Below, in pieces: positions 47,941 to 54,071 of a DNA stretch of 64,000 nt. The translations under genes were made by a program, and so were the position numbers. The stretch comes from Microbacterium schleiferi (GTDB taxonomy: Bacteria; Actinomycetota; Actinomycetes; Actinomycetales; Microbacteriaceae): positions 2,604,001-2,668,000 of the forward strand of contig NZ_CP064760.1 of assembly GCF_015565955.1 (NCBI RefSeq). The letters are read 5' to 3'. Numbering within the stretch: position 1 is the first letter of the stretch; each line of letters opens with the position of its first letter. Below the pieces are notes generated by a model that was not told the origin of the DNA, did no database searches, and saw nothing but the letters and a program-made list of their open reading frames with translations.

Positions 47941-48023
47941 GTAGCAGGAGCGGGGCTTGTCCCCACCGCCCCTCCACGCGCCGCTTCGCAGCGCGCGGAG
48001 CCTCCGGCGGCGTGGGCCCACCC
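47941..48023 (-). repeat. tRNA-end repeat, copy A (64-bp core + 19-bp tRNA-Met 3' end)
   Basis: 47960-48023 is a 64-bp core beginning (minus strand) GGGTGGGCCCACGCC and ending GCGGTGGGGA. It is followed by CAAGCCCCGCTCCTGCTAC (47941-47959), identical to the last 19 bases of the tRNA-Met gene locus at 49606-49624. The similarity to copy B extends through the flanking terminator to 48092. Defines one end of a small island. Confidence 0.85.
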
Positions 48024-48054
48024 GCGCGTGACCGCTCCAACCACCCGCCCCGGA

Positions 48055-48092
48055 ACGAAGAAAGAGGCCCTCAGCGGGGCCTCTTTCTTCGT
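48055..48092 (-). terminator. Terminator-like hairpin beside repeat copy A
   Basis: 16-bp arms acgaagaaagaggccc / gggcctctttcttcgt (48055-48070 and 48077-48092). It is a close relative of the terminator directly behind tRNA-Met, though no intact tRNA precedes it here, only GGCTCTAC. Confidence 0.7.
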
Positions 48093-48180
48093 AGAGCCGT
48101 TAAACGGCTACTCCAACAATTCACTTCTTCTCCCGCCGCAGGCGACGGAACTCAGCAAGCTGGCGGCAGCCGCAGCACGA

Positions 48181-48684
48181 ATGCCAGATCCAGCAGCGAA
48201 GCCACCACCGCCACCACACCGCCTCTCGCGGCGCCTGAGCCCGGAAACCTGCGCCGAGATCGCGGAGAAGTGCAGAGCCGGAGCGACGACTCCATCACTG
48301 TGCGCCGAGTACGGCATCTCGAAGGGCGGATTGCTTCGACTACTCCGCGACCGAGGTGTCGAGATGCGCCGCCAGCCACTCGCCCCGGAACACGTCGAGC
48401 AAGCCGCCGCCCTCTACCGGTACGGCTTCTCGATCGCCGCCATCGCCAGCTACCTCGACGCCAGCTACAACAACGTCAGACAGAACTTCGTGCGGCTCGG
48501 CATCGAGCGCAGACCACGCGGCGGATCCCAGCCAGTCTCCGGCCGAGTCAATCACTCCACTCTCGATGAGCAGCAGGGCATGGCCGCGGTCCTCCTCTAT
48601 ATCGCAGGTGGCCCGCTTGAAACAGCATTTGTACCTGAAACGCGGGTCTTTTGCTGCAGCGGCGTTGCTTGGCTTCCGGGATGA
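48181..48684 (+). CDS. Helix-turn-helix domain protein of the repeat-flanked island
   Basis: 167 aa from ATG 48181; the frame is open upstream, so the start is uncertain. Pro-rich beginning, then two successive helix-turn-helix-like blocks: SPETCAEIAEKCRAGATTPS with CAEYGISKGGLLRLLRDRGV, and PEHVEQAAALYRYGFSIAAI with YLDASYNNVRQNFVRLGI. These resemble the DNA-binding ends of recombinases or small homeodomain-like phage proteins. No catalytic recombinase domain is present. The last 35 residues may be read-through of low meaning. Confidence 0.6.
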   Translation: MPDPAAKPPPPPHRLSRRLSPETCAEIAEKCRAGATTPSLCAEYGISKGGLLRLLRDRGVEMRRQPLAPEHVEQAAALYRYGFSIAAIASYLDASYNNVRQNFVRLGIERRPRGGSQPVSGRVNHSTLDEQQGMAAVLLYIAGGPLETAFVPETRVFCCSGVAWLPG

Positions 48685-48711
48685 GTCTGCGGTCCCGCCT
48701 ACGGTGGAGAA

Positions 48712-49248
48712 GTGACCTTCCAGCCCGCTGACCGCGTATACGTCGATGAGTCGAAGGCCCGCGGCTACTACATCGTTGCTACTGCCACTGCAATCGGTGA
48801 CGTTCAGGCATCCGAACGGGCGCTGCGCGATCTCCTCAAGCCGGGTCAGCGACGCATCCACTTCAAGAGTGAGAGCGACAGTCGACGCCGCCAGATCCTC
48901 TCGCGCATTTGCGCTCTCGAGGTACGCGTGTCCGTGTGGGTTGTCAAGGAGCGGTCAGACAAGGAAGCGCGGCCACTGTCCCTCGGCGCACTCGCTGAGG
49001 AAGCCGCCCGCACTGGTGTGGCACAGCTGATCATCGAACGAGACGAGTCCCTCGAGCGTGCCGACCGCCGACTGATCGCCGATGTGATCCGCCGCGCAGG
49101 ATCACCAGATATGCAGTACCGGCATGTCGCGCCGCACGAGCATCCGCTGCTCTGGGCGAGTGATGCCGTCGCCTGGTGCTACTCGAACGGCGGCGACTGG
49201 ATCCGTCGCGTCAATGCGATCGTTGAGTCCCGAGTCACCCGGCTGTAG
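48712..49248 (+). CDS. DUF3800-like protein of the repeat-flanked island
   Basis: 178 aa, GTG start with GGTGGAGAA upstream. Begins with RVYVDESKARGYYIVATATA, a YVDES acidic motif followed by conserved HFKSESDSRRRQIL and a C-terminal SDAVAWCYSNGGDWIRRV, the pattern of DUF3800-like RNase-H-fold proteins often found in mobile or defence loci. Function unknown; catalytic role suggested only by the acidic residues. Shares the island with the HTH gene, 27 bp downstream of it. Confidence 0.6.
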   Translation: MTFQPADRVYVDESKARGYYIVATATAIGDVQASERALRDLLKPGQRRIHFKSESDSRRRQILSRICALEVRVSVWVVKERSDKEARPLSLGALAEEAARTGVAQLIIERDESLERADRRLIADVIRRAGSPDMQYRHVAPHEHPLLWASDAVAWCYSNGGDWIRRVNAIVESRVTRL

Positions 49249-49426
49249 AAACACGTGAGCCTGGCTCGTCATACCGTCCGGAAGACTGCCAGGCTCCGAG
49301 GGCTACTGCCCGCCGTGCTTCAAGTGTACCTCGACGGGGCCGCGACGGGCCAGCGTGGCTGTTCTCGACGTCTCAACCGGCACAACCCGCGTCATCGCCG
49401 ATCGAGCGGCCCTATCCGGATACGAC

Positions 49427-49452
49427 AAAGCCCCGGGAATCCGGGGGTCTTG
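49427..49452 (-). terminator. Hairpin downstream of repeat copy B
   Basis: AAGACCCCCGG / CCGGGGCTTT on the minus strand, 5 bp beyond the duplicated tRNA-Met end, as if it terminated a vanished tRNA. Confidence 0.55.
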
Positions 49453-49456
49453 ATCT

Positions 49457-49539
49457 GTAGCAGGAGCGGGGCTTGTCCCCACCGCCAGTCCACGCGCCGC
49501 TCCGCAGCGCGCGGAGCCACGGGCGGCGTGGGCCCACCC
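49457..49539 (-). repeat. tRNA-end repeat, copy B (64-bp core + 19-bp tRNA-Met 3' end)
   Basis: 64-bp core at 49476-49539, nearly identical to copies A and C, followed on the minus strand by CAAGCCCCGCTCCTGCTAC (49457-49475), a perfect 19-bp duplicate of the adjacent tRNA-Met 3' end starting at the T-loop C56 position. Confidence 0.85.
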
Positions 49540-49570
49540 GCGGGTGACGGCTTCACCCACCCACCCCGGA

Positions 49571-49607
49571 ACGACGAAAGAGGCCCACGAGGGGCCTCTT
49601 TCGTCGT
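49571..49607 (-). terminator. Terminator of tRNA-Met
   Basis: 15-bp arms acgacgaaagaggcc / ggcctctttcgtcgt (49571-49585, 49593-49607), directly abutting the tRNA 3' end. Confidence 0.85.
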
Positions 49608-49680
49608 AGCAGGAGCGGGGCTTGAACCCGCGACCTCACGATTATGAGTCGTGCGCTCTCACCAACTGAGCTACCCTGCC
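49607..49680 (-). tRNA. tRNA-Met (anticodon CAU, elongator-like)
   Basis: 74-nt cloverleaf: acceptor GGCAGGG / TCCTGCT (G-U at both ends), D stem GCTC/GAGC, anticodon stem CACGA/TCGTG with loop CTCATAA, T arm GCGGG TTCAAGC CCCGC, discriminator A. It lacks the initiator-specific GGG/CCC anticodon-stem pairs, so elongator Met is favoured; an Ile2 (lysidine-modified CAU) tRNA cannot be excluded. Confidence 0.93.
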
Positions 49681-49715
49681 GCACGGCATCCGTCGGTCAC
49701 GATATGGATGCTGCG

Positions 49716-49787
49716 AGCCCCGAGTCAGGATTGAACTGACGACCCCTTCCTTACCATGGAAGTGCTCTGCCACTGAGCTATCGGGGC
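49716..49787 (-). tRNA. tRNA-Thr (anticodon GGU)
   Basis: 72-nt cloverleaf: acceptor GCCCCGA / TCGGGGC, D stem GCTC/GAGC, anticodon stem CTTCC/GGAAG with loop ATGGTAA, T arm GTCAG TTCAATC CTGAC, discriminator T. 35 bp upstream of tRNA-Met in the direction of transcription, so the two may be co-transcribed. Confidence 0.95.
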
Positions 49788-49860
49788 GAAGCCCGACGTG
49801 CGGGCAACTAGAAGAGAATATCAGAGCGCTGTGATCCGAGAGAATCGACAGCGGCCGTGA

Positions 49861-51429
49861 TCACTGGTCGACAGTGACCGGCGCCTCGGGCACCGTGACG
49901 ACCGTCGAGGGAACGTTGTGGGCTGCCAACCAGGCCATCGGCTCCGTCGGAGTCTTGCCATTCAGCAACACCTCGAAGTGCAGGTGAGGGCCGGTGGAGT
50001 GGCCCGTCGTCCCCACAGTTCCAACGACGTCACCGAGCTTGATGACCTGCCCCGCCTGGACCCGGAGCGAGCCGTACTGCATGTGCGCGTAGTTCGTCGA
50101 AACCAGTTCGCCGTCCACGATGCTGTCGATCACGACATGTACGCCGTAGGCGCCGCCAGCCTCGGTCGCGATGCGGACGATCCCGTCGGCCACTGCGTGA
50201 ATCTCAGCGCCCTGGCCACCGGGTGCGAAGTCAACACCCTCGTGCATCCGGCCCCACCGCATCCCGTAGGGAGAACTGATCGGCACACCGACCGCGAAGG
50301 GGTATTGCACGGCTGCCGAGGCGTTGTTGACGTAGGTCGACGCGACCTCGCGCACGCCCGCTTCGACAGCCAGCTCGGCCATCGAGACAGCCGAATAGCC
50401 TTCCTCGCGGCTCAGAGTCGCTGTGGCTGCCTCCGCCGGCGCAACGTAGGCCTGAATGTCTTCCTCGGGCGAGGCGGTCGGCTCAACATCGCCGAGCGCG
50501 ACGATCGACGCGGTGGGCCCCTCGCCCCCGCCGACGGCTGCGACGGCCTCGACGGGCGTCGTCATTCCCACGGCGAGCAAGCCGACGATTCCCATGACTC
50601 CGACCGAGAAGGACGTGGCAGCGAACTTGCGCACGGACCCGGTGCGGGGGCGACGGCGAGCAACGTGCTCGGATGCCGCGGGCTGCGCCTCGGCGTCTGC
50701 CGGCGCATCCGCCGTGGTGGATGTTTCCCGAGCGAGTGTCGCGGTCTCCCCCGTCACTCCGAAGGTGCGGACGACTTCCTCAAACAGGTCACGCGCGGAC
50801 TCGCTCGCCGGCATCTGCGGCTCATCCGCGACAGGCAGTTCCTCCGCGCGGGGTGACTCCTCCGCGGCGGGTGGCTCCGGGGCGTCTGCCACGGGAGCGA
50901 CATCTTCGACGGGAGTCTCATCGACATCATCCGTCGGCGCGATCGCCGCCGCGTCGTTGTGGGGAGCCTCGTCGACCGAGACGAACCCAAGCACCTGGTC
51001 CGCCACAACAGGCTCGGGTGCCGGGGCGGCCTCGGATGCCGGGGCGGCGGGCGCGGTACCGGCACGGCGGGCGCGACGGGTCAAGGGGACTTCGGTGGCG
51101 ACGCCCTCTGCGGCGACGACGGTCTGGTCGGGCTGCCGGGCAGAGTCGATTCCCGCTCCCGAGAGCGCCTCGGCTTCGGTATCCGTGAGCGGCACATTGT
51201 GGAGGCGTGACCGTAGCCCTGCCGGCCGCGGAGCGAGCTCACCGGCCGAAACCTCAGCGTCGTGCGGGCCTGTCGTCACGGGGGCAGACACCGGGTTGTC
51301 GAGGCGACGACCGCGGCGCAACTCCGCTCGAGAAGAACCCGATGACTCCGACGCCTGCACAGGCGTGGGAGTCGTGCGACTGGAGCGGCGCGTTGGCGCT
51401 GCGTCAGGCGCAGGGGTATCGGGGGTCAC
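49861..51429 (-). CDS. M23 (LytM/LysM-type) metallopeptidase, cell-wall hydrolase
   Basis: 522 aa. Residues 1-270 are a long Ala/Pro/Glu-rich cytoplasmic tail, followed by a single membrane helix (FAATSFSVGVMGIVGLLAVGM), a spacer and the M23 domain with zinc ligands in RMHEGVDFAPG and HLHFEVLLNG. Expected to cut peptidoglycan peptides at the cell surface, or to activate an amidase. The very long disordered intracellular tail is unusual. An MtrA-like box lies about 90 bp upstream. Confidence 0.9.
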   Translation of the reverse strand: MTPDTPAPDAAPTRRSSRTTPTPVQASESSGSSRAELRRGRRLDNPVSAPVTTGPHDAEVSAGELAPRPAGLRSRLHNVPLTDTEAEALSGAGIDSARQPDQTVVAAEGVATEVPLTRRARRAGTAPAAPASEAAPAPEPVVADQVLGFVSVDEAPHNDAAAIAPTDDVDETPVEDVAPVADAPEPPAAEESPRAEELPVADEPQMPASESARDLFEEVVRTFGVTGETATLARETSTTADAPADAEAQPAASEHVARRRPRTGSVRKFAATSFSVGVMGIVGLLAVGMTTPVEAVAAVGGGEGPTASIVALGDVEPTASPEEDIQAYVAPAEAATATLSREEGYSAVSMAELAVEAGVREVASTYVNNASAAVQYPFAVGVPISSPYGMRWGRMHEGVDFAPGGQGAEIHAVADGIVRIATEAGGAYGVHVVIDSIVDGELVSTNYAHMQYGSLRVQAGQVIKLGDVVGTVGTTGHSTGPHLHFEVLLNGKTPTEPMAWLAAHNVPSTVVTVPEAPVTVDQ

Positions 51430-51517
51430 GGATCTCGCTCTCGGTCGTCGGGTACGACACGGGTGTTCGAAGGGTACTCAGCCTGCTCTGCCCCGGTTTC
51501 CCGGATGCGCAAAGAAG

Positions 51518-51533
51518 GTAACGATACGGTAAA
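51518..51533. promoter_or_regulatory. MtrA-like box upstream of the M23 peptidase
   Basis: GTAACGATACGGTAAA matches the direct repeat GTAAC-N6-GTAAC of MtrA sites except for the last base. In corynebacteria, mycobacteria and streptomycetes MtrA controls cell-wall hydrolases, so the site is sensible 89 bp upstream of this peptidase start. The wider sequence GGTAACG...CGCTACC is also an inverted repeat. Confidence 0.5.
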
Positions 51534-51575
51534 CGCTACCTGGTCGCGCCTGAGAAAGCCATGGACGATCCCCAT

Positions 51576-51604
51576 TCTGCGGATTCCACAGTGGTATCCG
51601 CAGA
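51576..51604 (-). terminator. Terminator of the inositol-phosphatase-like gene
   Basis: Nine-base arms TCTGCGGAT / ATCCGCAGA with an 11-base loop, 7 bp past the stop codon at 51612. Confidence 0.65.
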
Positions 51605-51611
51605 TCCGTTG

Positions 51612-52412
51612 TCAGGGTTGCGCGAGGGTCAACAGTCGATCGAAGACGCCGGGGACCGCGGCGATCACCAGAACGCGACCGGTGTCATCCGCGGGCAGAA
51701 GTGCGAAGCGTCCGCCGGCTTCTGTCACGATGAGCGCCGCGGCGGCGTGATCCCAGGGTTTGAGCCCTCGCTCGAAGTAGCCGTCGACGCGGCCGGCGGC
51801 CACCGAGCACAGGTCGATGGATGCTGCGCCCATCCGTCTGATGTCTCGGGCTATCGGCATGACGCGGGCAACCCGACCCAGGTCACCCGCGTGGGTGGCG
51901 GGGTCGTATCCGAAGCCGGTTGCCAGCAGCGCACCCGCGGCGGAGACCTCAGCCTCGACGTGAAGTCGCCGGTCGCCGAGCCAGGCCCCCGCGCCCTGGG
52001 CCGCATGGAACATCTCGTCCAGCGACGGCACATACACGGCGCCGGCCAGCGCGGTCCACGTCTGCGGGTCGGACGTTCCCTGCACGGCCGCAATGCTCAC
52101 GGCATAGAACGGGATGCCGTAGGCGTAGTTGACCGTCCCATCGATCGGATCCACGACCCAGGTGGTGCCGCTGCTTCCGGGGTCGGCATCCGATTCTTCA
52201 CCGAGAAAACCGTCCGTCGGTCGAAGCTCGCGGAGCCTGGAGCGGATGAGGGCCTCGACCTCGCGGTCAGCCTCGGTGACGATGTCTGCGAGCGCGGACT
52301 TGGTAGCCGCGATCGAGACGCCCGCGCTGCGACGCTCGCGCGCCAGCTGCCCTGCCTCGCGGGCAAGGTCGATGGCGATGTTCTCGAGTTCTCGCGGGTC
52401 GGCGTCAGTCAC
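51612..52412 (-). CDS. Inositol monophosphatase-family phosphatase
   Basis: 266 aa. Metal- and substrate-binding motifs are intact: GEESD (motif 1), DPIDGTVNYAYG (motif 2) and KPWDHAAAALIVTEAGG (motif 3). Leaderless GTG 52412: TAGCGT, six bases, GTG. Family members hydrolyse inositol-1-phosphate, fructose-1,6-bisphosphate, histidinol phosphate or PAP; the exact substrate is not evident. Confidence 0.9.
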   Translation of the reverse strand: MTDADPRELENIAIDLAREAGQLARERRSAGVSIAATKSALADIVTEADREVEALIRSRLRELRPTDGFLGEESDADPGSSGTTWVVDPIDGTVNYAYGIPFYAVSIAAVQGTSDPQTWTALAGAVYVPSLDEMFHAAQGAGAWLGDRRLHVEAEVSAAGALLATGFGYDPATHAGDLGRVARVMPIARDIRRMGAASIDLCSVAAGRVDGYFERGLKPWDHAAAALIVTEAGGRFALLPADDTGRVLVIAAVPGVFDRLLTLAQP

Positions 52413-52432
52413 CCCTTCACGCTAGCGTCCGA

Positions 52433-53521
52433 TCACGACTGGCGCGGCGGCTCCGCGGGATCGTCAGCGTCGCTCTCCGGGGACGACTCGACTGCGGGGT
52501 CGGCGCTCACGTCCGGCTCGACCGTGGCCGGTGCCTCGGGCGCAGCTTCAGCACTCGCAGGTGCGGGCGGTGCAGCGTCGGGGGCTCCGGCAGCACTTCC
52601 AGGCGCGGCCGGAGCAGGCGCAGCCGGGGCGGGCGGCGGCGACACCGGAGCGAAGATCTGCGCGCCGGGCGTGGGGTGACCCGTGTAGTACGCGTTCCAG
52701 TCCGGCGAGCCATCGGGCAGCATCGGCAGGGGTGTCACGCCGTCGATGTACATCGGCCACGGGAGCAGGTCTTGTTCAGCGCTGGCAGCGGGTGCGGAGG
52801 GCGCCGACGTCGTGGCGACCGGGGCCACACCGACGGGACGGGGCGCGAACAGCAGATTCACGAGGGGTACGAGCGCCGTGCCGACGGCGGCCAGGATGAC
52901 GACGGCAACGACGATCCGCCAGTAGAACTCCGCGAAGAAGATCCAGTCGCTGAAGATCAGCGGCAGTAGCAGGAGCAGTGCGAGGAGCGCGACCAGCCCC
53001 ACCGTGACGGGGGCGAGGATGCGGTTGATGGGCGTGACGTGCCGCAGGGCAGCCCGAAGGAAGAACCGGGCATGCAGGAGGGCGAGCTGGAGCACGAGGA
53101 CGACCAGGAGGAAGCGGAGGAACCGTCCGGGTCCGACGAAATCCCACCCGTAGAACGACCAGGGCTCGGGCATCCAGATCAAGATGATGCCGGCCAGGAG
53201 CGCGACAACCCACGTGGCGATGCTGGCGATGGCGAACCACGCAGGACGGCGCGGGGCAAGCCGCGCTTCCATGATGGCGATCCCCGCGAAACCGGCGAAC
53301 AGCAGCACGGTGATGAACGCACGGACAATCGAGCCGGTCTGCGGACCGACGAGGACCCAGACGACGCAGATGAGGGCTGCGGCGACGAGCGCACCGATCG
53401 CAACCCAGATCGCTGCGCGCGCGTAGGGGGACCGCGTCGCGAAGGACTGTTCGTCCGTTCCGGCAGCCGGAGGGGGCGACGGGACGTGCGGTGTGGGTGC
53501 GTCGGACGACGGGGTGGTCAT
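52433..53521 (-). CDS. Multi-pass membrane protein with Pro/Ala-rich C-terminus
   Basis: 362 aa. Six or so hydrophobic segments between residues 33 and 230, then a long Ala/Pro/Glu-rich tail of about 120 residues likely to be disordered. Ribosome site GGGAGGATTC. 20 bp upstream of the phosphatase gene and possibly co-transcribed with it. Function unknown. Confidence 0.75.
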   Translation of the reverse strand: MTTPSSDAPTPHVPSPPPAAGTDEQSFATRSPYARAAIWVAIGALVAAALICVVWVLVGPQTGSIVRAFITVLLFAGFAGIAIMEARLAPRRPAWFAIASIATWVVALLAGIILIWMPEPWSFYGWDFVGPGRFLRFLLVVLVLQLALLHARFFLRAALRHVTPINRILAPVTVGLVALLALLLLLPLIFSDWIFFAEFYWRIVVAVVILAAVGTALVPLVNLLFAPRPVGVAPVATTSAPSAPAASAEQDLLPWPMYIDGVTPLPMLPDGSPDWNAYYTGHPTPGAQIFAPVSPPPAPAAPAPAAPGSAAGAPDAAPPAPASAEAAPEAPATVEPDVSADPAVESSPESDADDPAEPPRQS

Positions 53522-53659
53522 GAATCCTCCCGAGGATCGATGTCGCTGTCATCCTCGCACGCGAGCCTTAGATCCAAACCCCCCGGTTCGCCCCGATTGT
53601 GGACGATCTGGCCGCGGCGCGCGGGTAGGAGGAGGCGATTTCTGACAGCCCGTCACTCG

Positions 53660-53666
53660 CTGTAAT
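53660..53666 (+). promoter_or_regulatory. Probable -10 element of the tRNA-Tyr promoter
   Basis: GTAATAT about 50 bp before the tRNA, in an otherwise very GC-rich stretch, with CTGACA about 16 bp further upstream as a weak -35. Confidence 0.4.
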
Positions 53667-53717
53667 ATTGCTAGTCGCGCCTCCGGTCGACTGTACAAGC
53701 TGGGCGGGTGCGCATTC

Positions 53718-53799
53718 GGCAGGTTACCCAAGCGGCCAAAGGGATCTGACTGTAAATCAGCCGGCATAGCCTTCGGGGGTTCGAATCCCTCACCTGCCA
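53718..53799 (+). tRNA. tRNA-Tyr (anticodon GUA)
   Basis: 82-nt class-II tRNA with acceptor GGCAGGT / ACCTGCC, anticodon stem CTGAC..., loop CTGTAAA with GTA, long variable arm, T arm GGGGG TTCGAAT CCCTC and discriminator A. Confidence 0.95.
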
Positions 53800-53801
53800 C
53801 T

Positions 53802-53845
53802 CAACGAATAACGGGTCTCGCGAAAGCGGGGCCCGTTATTCGTTG
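53802..53845 (+). terminator. Terminator of tRNA-Tyr
   Basis: Perfect 14-bp stem caacgaataacggg / cccgttattcgttg with loop TCTCGCGAAAGCGGGG, 2 bp after the tRNA. Confidence 0.85.
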
Positions 53846-53871
53846 ATCGAGCACTACGGGTTCGAACCCCC

Positions 53872-53954
53872 GGGTGGGCCCACGCCGCCCGAGGCTCCGC
53901 GCGCTGCGCAGCAGCGCGTGGAGGGGCGGTGGGGACGAATCCCTCACCTGCCAC
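53872..53954 (+). repeat. tRNA-end repeat, copy C (64-bp core + 19-bp tRNA-Tyr 3' end)
   Basis: 53872-53935 is the same 64-bp core as copies A and B in the same orientation relative to the tRNA. It is followed by CGAATCCCTCACCTGCCAC (53936-53954), identical to the last 19 bases of the tRNA-Tyr locus (53782-53800). The duplicated end thus belongs to Tyr here and to Met in copies A and B. Confidence 0.88.
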
Positions 53955-53955
53955 A

Positions 53956-53998
53956 AAATGTTCAAGGGCTCTCGCGAAGCGGGGGCCCTTAAACATTT
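53956..53998 (+). terminator. Second terminator after the duplicated tRNA-Tyr end
   Basis: Arms AAATGTTCAAGGGC / GCCCTTAAACATTT (one mismatch) with loop TCTCGCGAAGCGGG, almost the loop of the first terminator but with an entirely different stem. Confidence 0.75.
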
Positions 53999-54023
53999 CT
54001 GAGCACTGCGGGTTCGAGCCGCC

Positions 54024-54051
54024 GGGTGGGCCCACGCCGCCCGACGCTCCG
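54024..54051 (+). repeat. Truncated copy D of the 64-bp core
   Basis: The first 28 bases of the core (GGGTGGGCCCACGCCGCCCG and onward), preceded by GAGCACTGCGGGTTCGAGCC, which parallels the sequence before copy C. It then runs into the pfkB terminator. Confidence 0.7.
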
Positions 54052-54071
54052 AGCCCGAGCGGGCTGGGAGC
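54046..54071 (-). terminator. Terminator of the pfkB-type gene
   Basis: GCTCCGAGCCC / GGGCTGGGAGC arms with loop GAGC, 5 bp past the kinase stop. Confidence 0.65.

Follow-up and report, generated by a model that had tools for sequence, protein, structure and literature searches.

What places the same short hairpin behind different tRNA genes, each time closed by a copy of the local tRNA's own 3′ end? The question is raised by a stretch of 64,000 nucleotides from Microbacterium schleiferi (positions 2,604,001 to 2,668,000 of NZ_CP064760.1; hereafter the window), part of a 3.30-Mb genome in one contig, which carries three copies (A, B and C) of a 64-bp core predicted to fold into one long hairpin, together with the 5′ fragment of a fourth that begins at 54024 (Table 1). 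The copies differ at 3/64 (A–C) and 5/64 positions (A–B and B–C) and, as the first-pass annotation of the window had claimed, each ends in a perfect 19-bp copy of a tRNA 3′ end running from C56 to one base past the discriminator, taken from tRNA-Met in A and B and from tRNA-Tyr in C; both the coordinates and the matches are confirmed. The accompanying statement that every core lies between a tRNA and the copied end is correct for B and C, but not for A, which is found ~1.4 kb beyond unit B with no adjoining tRNA. We consider it probable that these are units of the type of the tRNA-linked repeats (TLRs), the class of repeats found behind tRNA genes in E. coli, and that their core is a small mobile palindrome that has also spread to terminators and protein genes.

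With the Tyr core as query, BLASTN returned 15 places at E ≤ 4.4e-8 in the source genome, including the fragment at 54012-54054, and chance is therefore excluded. Twelve of the 14 full copies lie directly behind 11 intact tRNA genes (Tyr, two Met genes, Ser-TGA, Leu-GAG, Leu-CAA, Leu-TAA, Gly-TCC, Thr-CGT, Arg-CCG and Pro-CGG), and all 14, which are the same copies from which our covariance model was built, end in a tRNA 3′ piece of at least 8 nt. The two copies without an adjoining intact tRNA, A and L010, retain the tRNA end and have been displaced by inserts; L010 lies behind a partial tRNA-Gly, ~4.9 kb from the intact tRNA-Gly-CCC. The earlier observations that one and the same core is joined to whichever tRNA end is local, in constant orientation, and that the unit holds no gene, are thereby supported.

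Alignment of the stretch following the tRNA with the stretch following the core revealed that the repeated segment comprises the tRNA 3′ end, a terminator, a spacer and the core, giving a unit of ~150-200 bp; the duplication is longer than the 19 bp proposed at first, since terminator and spacer are repeated too. All three of these flanking parts recur at the better-kept loci, often leading into a truncated or further core (arrays of this kind occur at L001, L012, L013, L037, L043, L047, L049 and L105); likeness at the less-kept loci is limited to the tRNA end, and at L064, L070 and L074 does not extend even to that. As in the TLR class, several loci are present per genome, with one to a few units each. 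Scanning of 90 nt in each of 74 units identified a recognisable tRNA end copy in 58 and none in the other 16, and the join falls at T-loop positions 55-57 in 48 of the 58 (34 at 56, 9 at 55 and 5 at 57). A start at C56 thus describes the window, but not the family as a rule. Four joins (at 62, 62, 65 and 74) we judge to be mis-scored or altered. Two terminator types occur at Gly loci, in varying order and in two tRNA genes of one genome, so that units seem to have been exchanged.

A break in the T loop, with the tRNA end restored, is also the mark of integrative elements whose attachment sites lie there. Two loci bring such elements to mind: a Phage_integrase open reading frame (ORF; 258 aa, E 4.1e-19) lies on the opposite strand directly behind the tRNA-Gly-TCC unit (L259:6546-7322), and the ~4.9 kb between the intact tRNA-Gly-CCC and a partial tRNA copy look like an island whose far side is closed by a core unit (L260:4907-9954). 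A single integrase-type insertion that leaves a 19-bp target copy, as originally suggested, is not supported in that form, given the duplicated terminator and spacer, the variable joins, the occurrence of cores in genes and terminator loops without a tRNA end, and a flank before the core that is complementary to the tRNA 3′ end. A broader version would have tyrosine recombinases of phages or islands, acting at T-loop sites, leave tRNA end copies as scars, the core being an attachment-site arm; this is consistent with the T-loop joins, with both of these loci and with the ~1.4-kb insert between units A and B, but we regard it as quite unlikely, as terminators are repeated along with the tRNA ends, the same core occurs in genes without them, and the covariation of the hairpin (below) is unexpected for arm-binding sites. 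Viral carriage of the exact core pattern was rejected, with 0 matches in viral contigs, which likewise argues against such scars.

The core hairpin, 61-62 nt in the family, is conserved as a structure. In an alignment of 92 distinct sequences that was itself fitted to the hairpin scored, 98.2% of cells are paired versus 89.1% after shuffling, 13 of 22 pairs have changed on both sides, and the covariation score of 0.245 compares with 0.086 for shuffled alignments and at most 0.043 when the structure is slid; no Rfam family reached its gathering score with the cores. Folding of chosen units often, though not in all, gave three elements: a minihelix stem on the outside, a small hairpin, and the hairpin of the core. 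Read as a single strand, a well-kept unit is predicted to be an acceptor/T-arm minihelix with its T loop filled by the core.

The left side of that minihelix is an arm preceding the core, and on average it is matched to the local tRNA. Over 74 units on 23 tRNA species, pairing of the left arm with the local tRNA 3′ end has a mean of -14.5 versus -12.4 kcal/mol, with 0/5000 shuffles as good, two rows that look mis-assigned (L040 Thr and L090) being kept in. The T-stem 5′ strand of the local tRNA is matched in the flank before the core at a level reached by 0/5000 shuffles (61 loci), and left–right complementarity over 8 nt was equalled in 2/500. The match covers acceptor and T stem in the best arms (Ala-CGC L269, Ala-TGC L272 and Leu-GAG L032). 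Of ten diagnostic positions in the arm, seven are Watson-Crick complementary to the tRNA 3′ strand and three equal the tRNA 5′ strand, which disfavours copying from the 5′ strand; the three exceptions, we judge, rest on poor arms. The arm before core C we take to be the tRNA 3′ end copied in inverse orientation and since decayed. GAGAA-type motifs, found in 13/74 left arms versus a mononucleotide-shuffled mean of 1.6 (maximum 7), are a hint only. In a core variant behind tRNA-Met (L244, genome G034), the arm has T where the acceptor 5′ strand has C, mismatched to A72, and complements the 3′ strand. The seven diagnostic positions, the palindromic make-up of the unit and the frequent finish of arrays in truncated cores would also suit a palindrome once placed behind tRNAs and since altered by template switching and tandem duplication at palindromes, with no dedicated mover. 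Alone, such passive instability is in our estimate very unlikely: it leaves unexplained how the same core came to lie behind 23 tRNA species, and the net insertions of 60 nt in genes described below.

The same covariance model was used to search relatives. At E ≤ 0.01, 94 of 149 genomes of the genus matched, the source included, with ~440 matches of all kinds summed over them; at E ≤ 1e-4, a draw from the family gave 29/249 genomes in 17/85 genera. Eight of 297 genomes matched in a draw from the order, seven of them within the family, and the only match outside it was weak and had no tRNA (G153). In the 16 other genera a same-strand tRNA lies just upstream in 37 of 41 loci (42 places of the family draw). 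One locus, L239, has a tRNA-Pro end with the tRNA absent within the locus, and L241, L252, L275 and L280 (the last a further other-genus match, G619, from the order draw and not tRNA-linked) have neither tRNA nor tRNA end. Within Microbacterium, of the best-scoring 97 copies, those that were read, 36 follow a tRNA, 23 lie in long open frames and 38 are elsewhere. Since the loci of other genera mostly have an upstream tRNA, the tRNA niche looks ancestral and dispersal a trait of Microbacterium. The exact core pattern occurs in 34 named stretches: 30 from Microbacterium, some of them metagenome-assembled genomes, three from Protaetiibacter mangrovi and one from an unplaced actinomycetotal metagenome-assembled genome.

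Evidence that the core itself has moved comes from protein genes. All 23 in-frame copies measure 66 nt by the model, and 13/15 antisense and 6/8 sense copies share one phase. Three of these genes, which from reading their sequences we take to encode a helicase, a DNA ligase and a PPK2-type kinase, were checked and have orthologues without the core tract; measured against the orthologues that align most closely, each carries a net insertion of 60 nt, and these empty sites are evidence of core mobility. The junctions tentatively suggest that ~62 nt replaced 2 nt, the lost pair being GT (in core orientation) in two genes if the most similar orthologues are ancestral, although other orthologues differ. 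Insertion of the core would explain 20-residue in-frame insertions in Microbacterium proteins. Near one in-frame core (L088, genome G131) a tandem peptide repeat, GCMPDEPDAHP, runs in one frame. Empty sites, the check that the first-pass annotation had called for, are also found at tRNA-Tyr: among 30 loci (29 from relatives; 38 genomes searched), only the window's own has a core beside the tRNA, one locus (L155) ending at a contig end and another (L170) having a weak match ~1.4 kb off. Several intergenic copies occupy terminator loops, the longest flanking stem measuring 22 bp (L071), and the 38 copies classed as elsewhere have a more palindromic setting than shuffled controls (mean flank stem 5.53 versus 4.28; best shuffle 5.05). 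Tandem or nested arrays of core pieces are present in some Microbacterium genomes (L053, L100, L104 and L115).

Short palindromes lying in frame in protein genes recall in plan the Rickettsia palindromic elements (RPE), as described in PMC3733652, and REPs. Elements of REP/RPE type moved by a Y1 (RAYT) transposase are nevertheless an extremely improbable source of these units: PF01797 was detected in 1/149 genus genomes (G041), itself without a core, and the conserved GTAG end is not seen in the 97 best-scoring genus copies. A Y1 transposase was accordingly rejected as the mover, being absent from core carriers among the 149 genomes. A further difference from REPs is that, outside Microbacterium, the cores reside mostly at tRNA ends.

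The main rival to a selfish hairpin is a read-through RNA acting on tRNA 3′ processing, that is, an inherited structured RNA, immobile at its tRNA loci, whose small RNAs are cut from tRNA read-through transcripts and selected either for regulation or as decoys in tRNA 3′ processing. Hairpin covariation, the average tuning of the left arm to the local tRNA and the reuse of the same tRNA kinds across species and genera (Pro-GGG, Ser-TGA, Gly and Leu-GAG) speak for it, as does precedent: according to PMC8144298, read-through of terminators yields transcripts of the rRNA-linked rrA, rrB and rrF TLRs of E. coli, which bind Hfq and CsrA in vitro. The earlier proposal that an identical arrangement in all distant relatives would indicate such an RNA is borne out in part, 14 of the 16 other genera with matches holding at least one tRNA-linked copy, but presence is patchy (94/149 and 29/249 genomes, with the Tyr unit in 1/30 loci). 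Truncated end copies suggest decay, and copies in genes and terminators need movement. We therefore regard an inherited RNA as unlikely. The suggestion that a core lying mostly away from tRNAs would argue against insertion is also borne out in part, 36 of the 97 Microbacterium copies lying behind a tRNA.

As our best guess, the hairpin is selfish, and tRNA ends tolerate it since it leaves the tRNA complete. In order, each unit consists of a copy of the local tRNA 3′ end that is inverted and often decayed, then a small hairpin and the core hairpin, followed by the tRNA 3′ end once more, copied directly from the T loop onward, and usually a terminator. The core would be a small mobile palindrome that lacks an enzyme of its own and enters in single-stranded, folded form, in many cases at the loop of a hairpin; at tRNA genes the survivors would be only those events that kept the tRNA intact, and tandem duplication and exchange between related tRNAs would then raise the number of units. 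Terminator loops and, with the reading frame kept, protein genes would be further places where this core settles in Microbacterium. Were a unit transcribed by read-through, like rrA, rrB and rrF, it would yield a mimic of the tRNA 3′ end on which tRNA processing enzymes could act.

Several results weigh against this explanation. Because loci are related to one another, the results of the shuffle tests are inflated. Only 9/74 left arms have the local tRNA as their best match and 19/74 have it in the top three (median rank 8/23), so that the match is weak in many units; it ranks 19/23 for the window's own Tyr unit. Complementarity of the T-loop half is not specific to the local tRNA (96/1000 shuffles equally good). 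Four joins fall at 66 (Arg-CCG, two Pro-CGG and one Met) and two at 51. Flank stems at tRNA loci and in genes are no better than the best shuffles, three of the 38 copies elsewhere carry tRNA ends and some are nested pieces of core, and for some in-frame copies (e.g. L053, L077 and L100), which lie within arrays of core pieces, the gene itself is doubtful. The search for a movement enzyme yielded none beyond the single Y1 transposase noted above. Finally, the covariance model of RtT (RF00391), the Rfam family of the E. coli tyrT 178-bp repeats, found no match up to E=5 in 11 loci (E. coli scores 133-137 bits), and homology of the core to RtT was rejected.

Two ORFs occupy the insert between units B and A: one encodes a helix-turn-helix protein (HTH_58, above the Pfam cut-off) and the other, of 178 aa, has a weak likeness to DUF3800, below the cut-off. 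The insert is perhaps the remains of a mobile element.

Table 1. Units and associated features in the window
Feature	Position	Strand	Basis
tRNA-Met 3′ end copy, 19 bp, behind core A	47941..47959	-	sequence
Hairpin core, copy A; insert of ~1.4 kb between core A and tRNA-Met	47960..48023	-	
Terminator-like hairpin preceding core A, resembling that behind tRNA-Met	48054..48092	-	sequence
Insert between units B and A, two ORFs	48190..49248	+	Pfam
tRNA-Met 3′ end copy, 19 bp, C56 to one base past discriminator	49457..49475	-	
Hairpin core, copy B	49476..49539	-	sequence comparison; family covariation
Palindromic terminator-like hairpin behind tRNA-Met; similar one in unit A	49570..49607	-	sequence
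tRNA-Met (CAT), host gene of unit B	49606..49680	-	ARAGORN, Rfam
tRNA-Tyr (GTA), host gene of unit C	53718..53800	+	ARAGORN
Terminator-like hairpin behind tRNA-Tyr	53801..53846	+	sequence
Left arm with T-arm-like GGGTTCGAACCC	53849..53868	+	sequence, complementarity ranking, folding
Hairpin core, copy C	53872..53935	+	sequence, covariation
tRNA-Tyr 3′ end copy, 19 bp	53936..53954	+	sequence, join scoring
Second terminator-like hairpin of the array	53956..53998	+	sequence, unit alignment
Second left arm, then the 5′ portion of another, truncated core; array end	54012..54054	+	BLASTN, alignment

Among known systems, integrative elements with T-loop attachment sites share the position of the break and the restored tRNA end, but the present units have neither genes nor integrase, repeat the terminator and are also inserted outside tRNAs. 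The attC sites of integrons, where a folded single-strand hairpin adjoins the joined ends, offer a likeness only. The closest counterpart is the TLR class, and the view that a non-coding unit of this kind is undescribed does not stand. PMC8144298 places the first description in 1978, counts 22 TLR genes at ten loci, each with 18-19 bp identical to the 3′ end of the upstream tRNA or rRNA, and gives the class no known function before its own report on the three rRNA-linked units; as a whole the class still had none by 2021. Units of both families lie directly downstream of a tRNA, end in its last 18-19 nt, join in the T loop, have hairpin-rich cores and occur in tandem, and in both the left arm pairs with the tRNA end, the outer stem of RtT in Rfam being GGGGAAGGAU with the tRNA-Tyr end. 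As a control, our scan of eight E. coli K-12 loci recovered units in three, tyrT/tyrV (four), argQ/argZ (two) and lysV (one), and all seven distinct units are joined at T-loop 58-59, unlike the Microbacterium-type units, which join mostly at 55-57. The latter differ further in the terminator-like hairpin within the repeated segment, in their 23 tRNA species and in the dispersal of the core to genes; GGATGAGAAGC, common to E. coli tyrT and L272, is a hint only. What is new is an actinobacterial TLR-like family on this range of tRNAs, with cores dispersed in Microbacterium, in-frame tracts included; a literature search, mostly outside subscription journals, found no account of these units. Because they share plan, T-loop join and left-arm logic but have no RtT similarity, we assign them to the TLR type on architecture, without claiming proven homology with the E. 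coli TLRs. A second family in Actinomycetota, with the same T-loop join and no detected sequence relation, suggests that the plan recurs, and its many natural examples, with empty and filled sites, make movement versus RNA function testable. More tentatively, and with more doubt than confidence, TLRs in general, those of E. coli included, may be the tRNA-resident state of a class of mobile hairpins whose targets are hairpin loops, chiefly the tRNA T loop, with Microbacterium supplying the missing step, in which the hairpin has escaped into terminator loops and reading frames.

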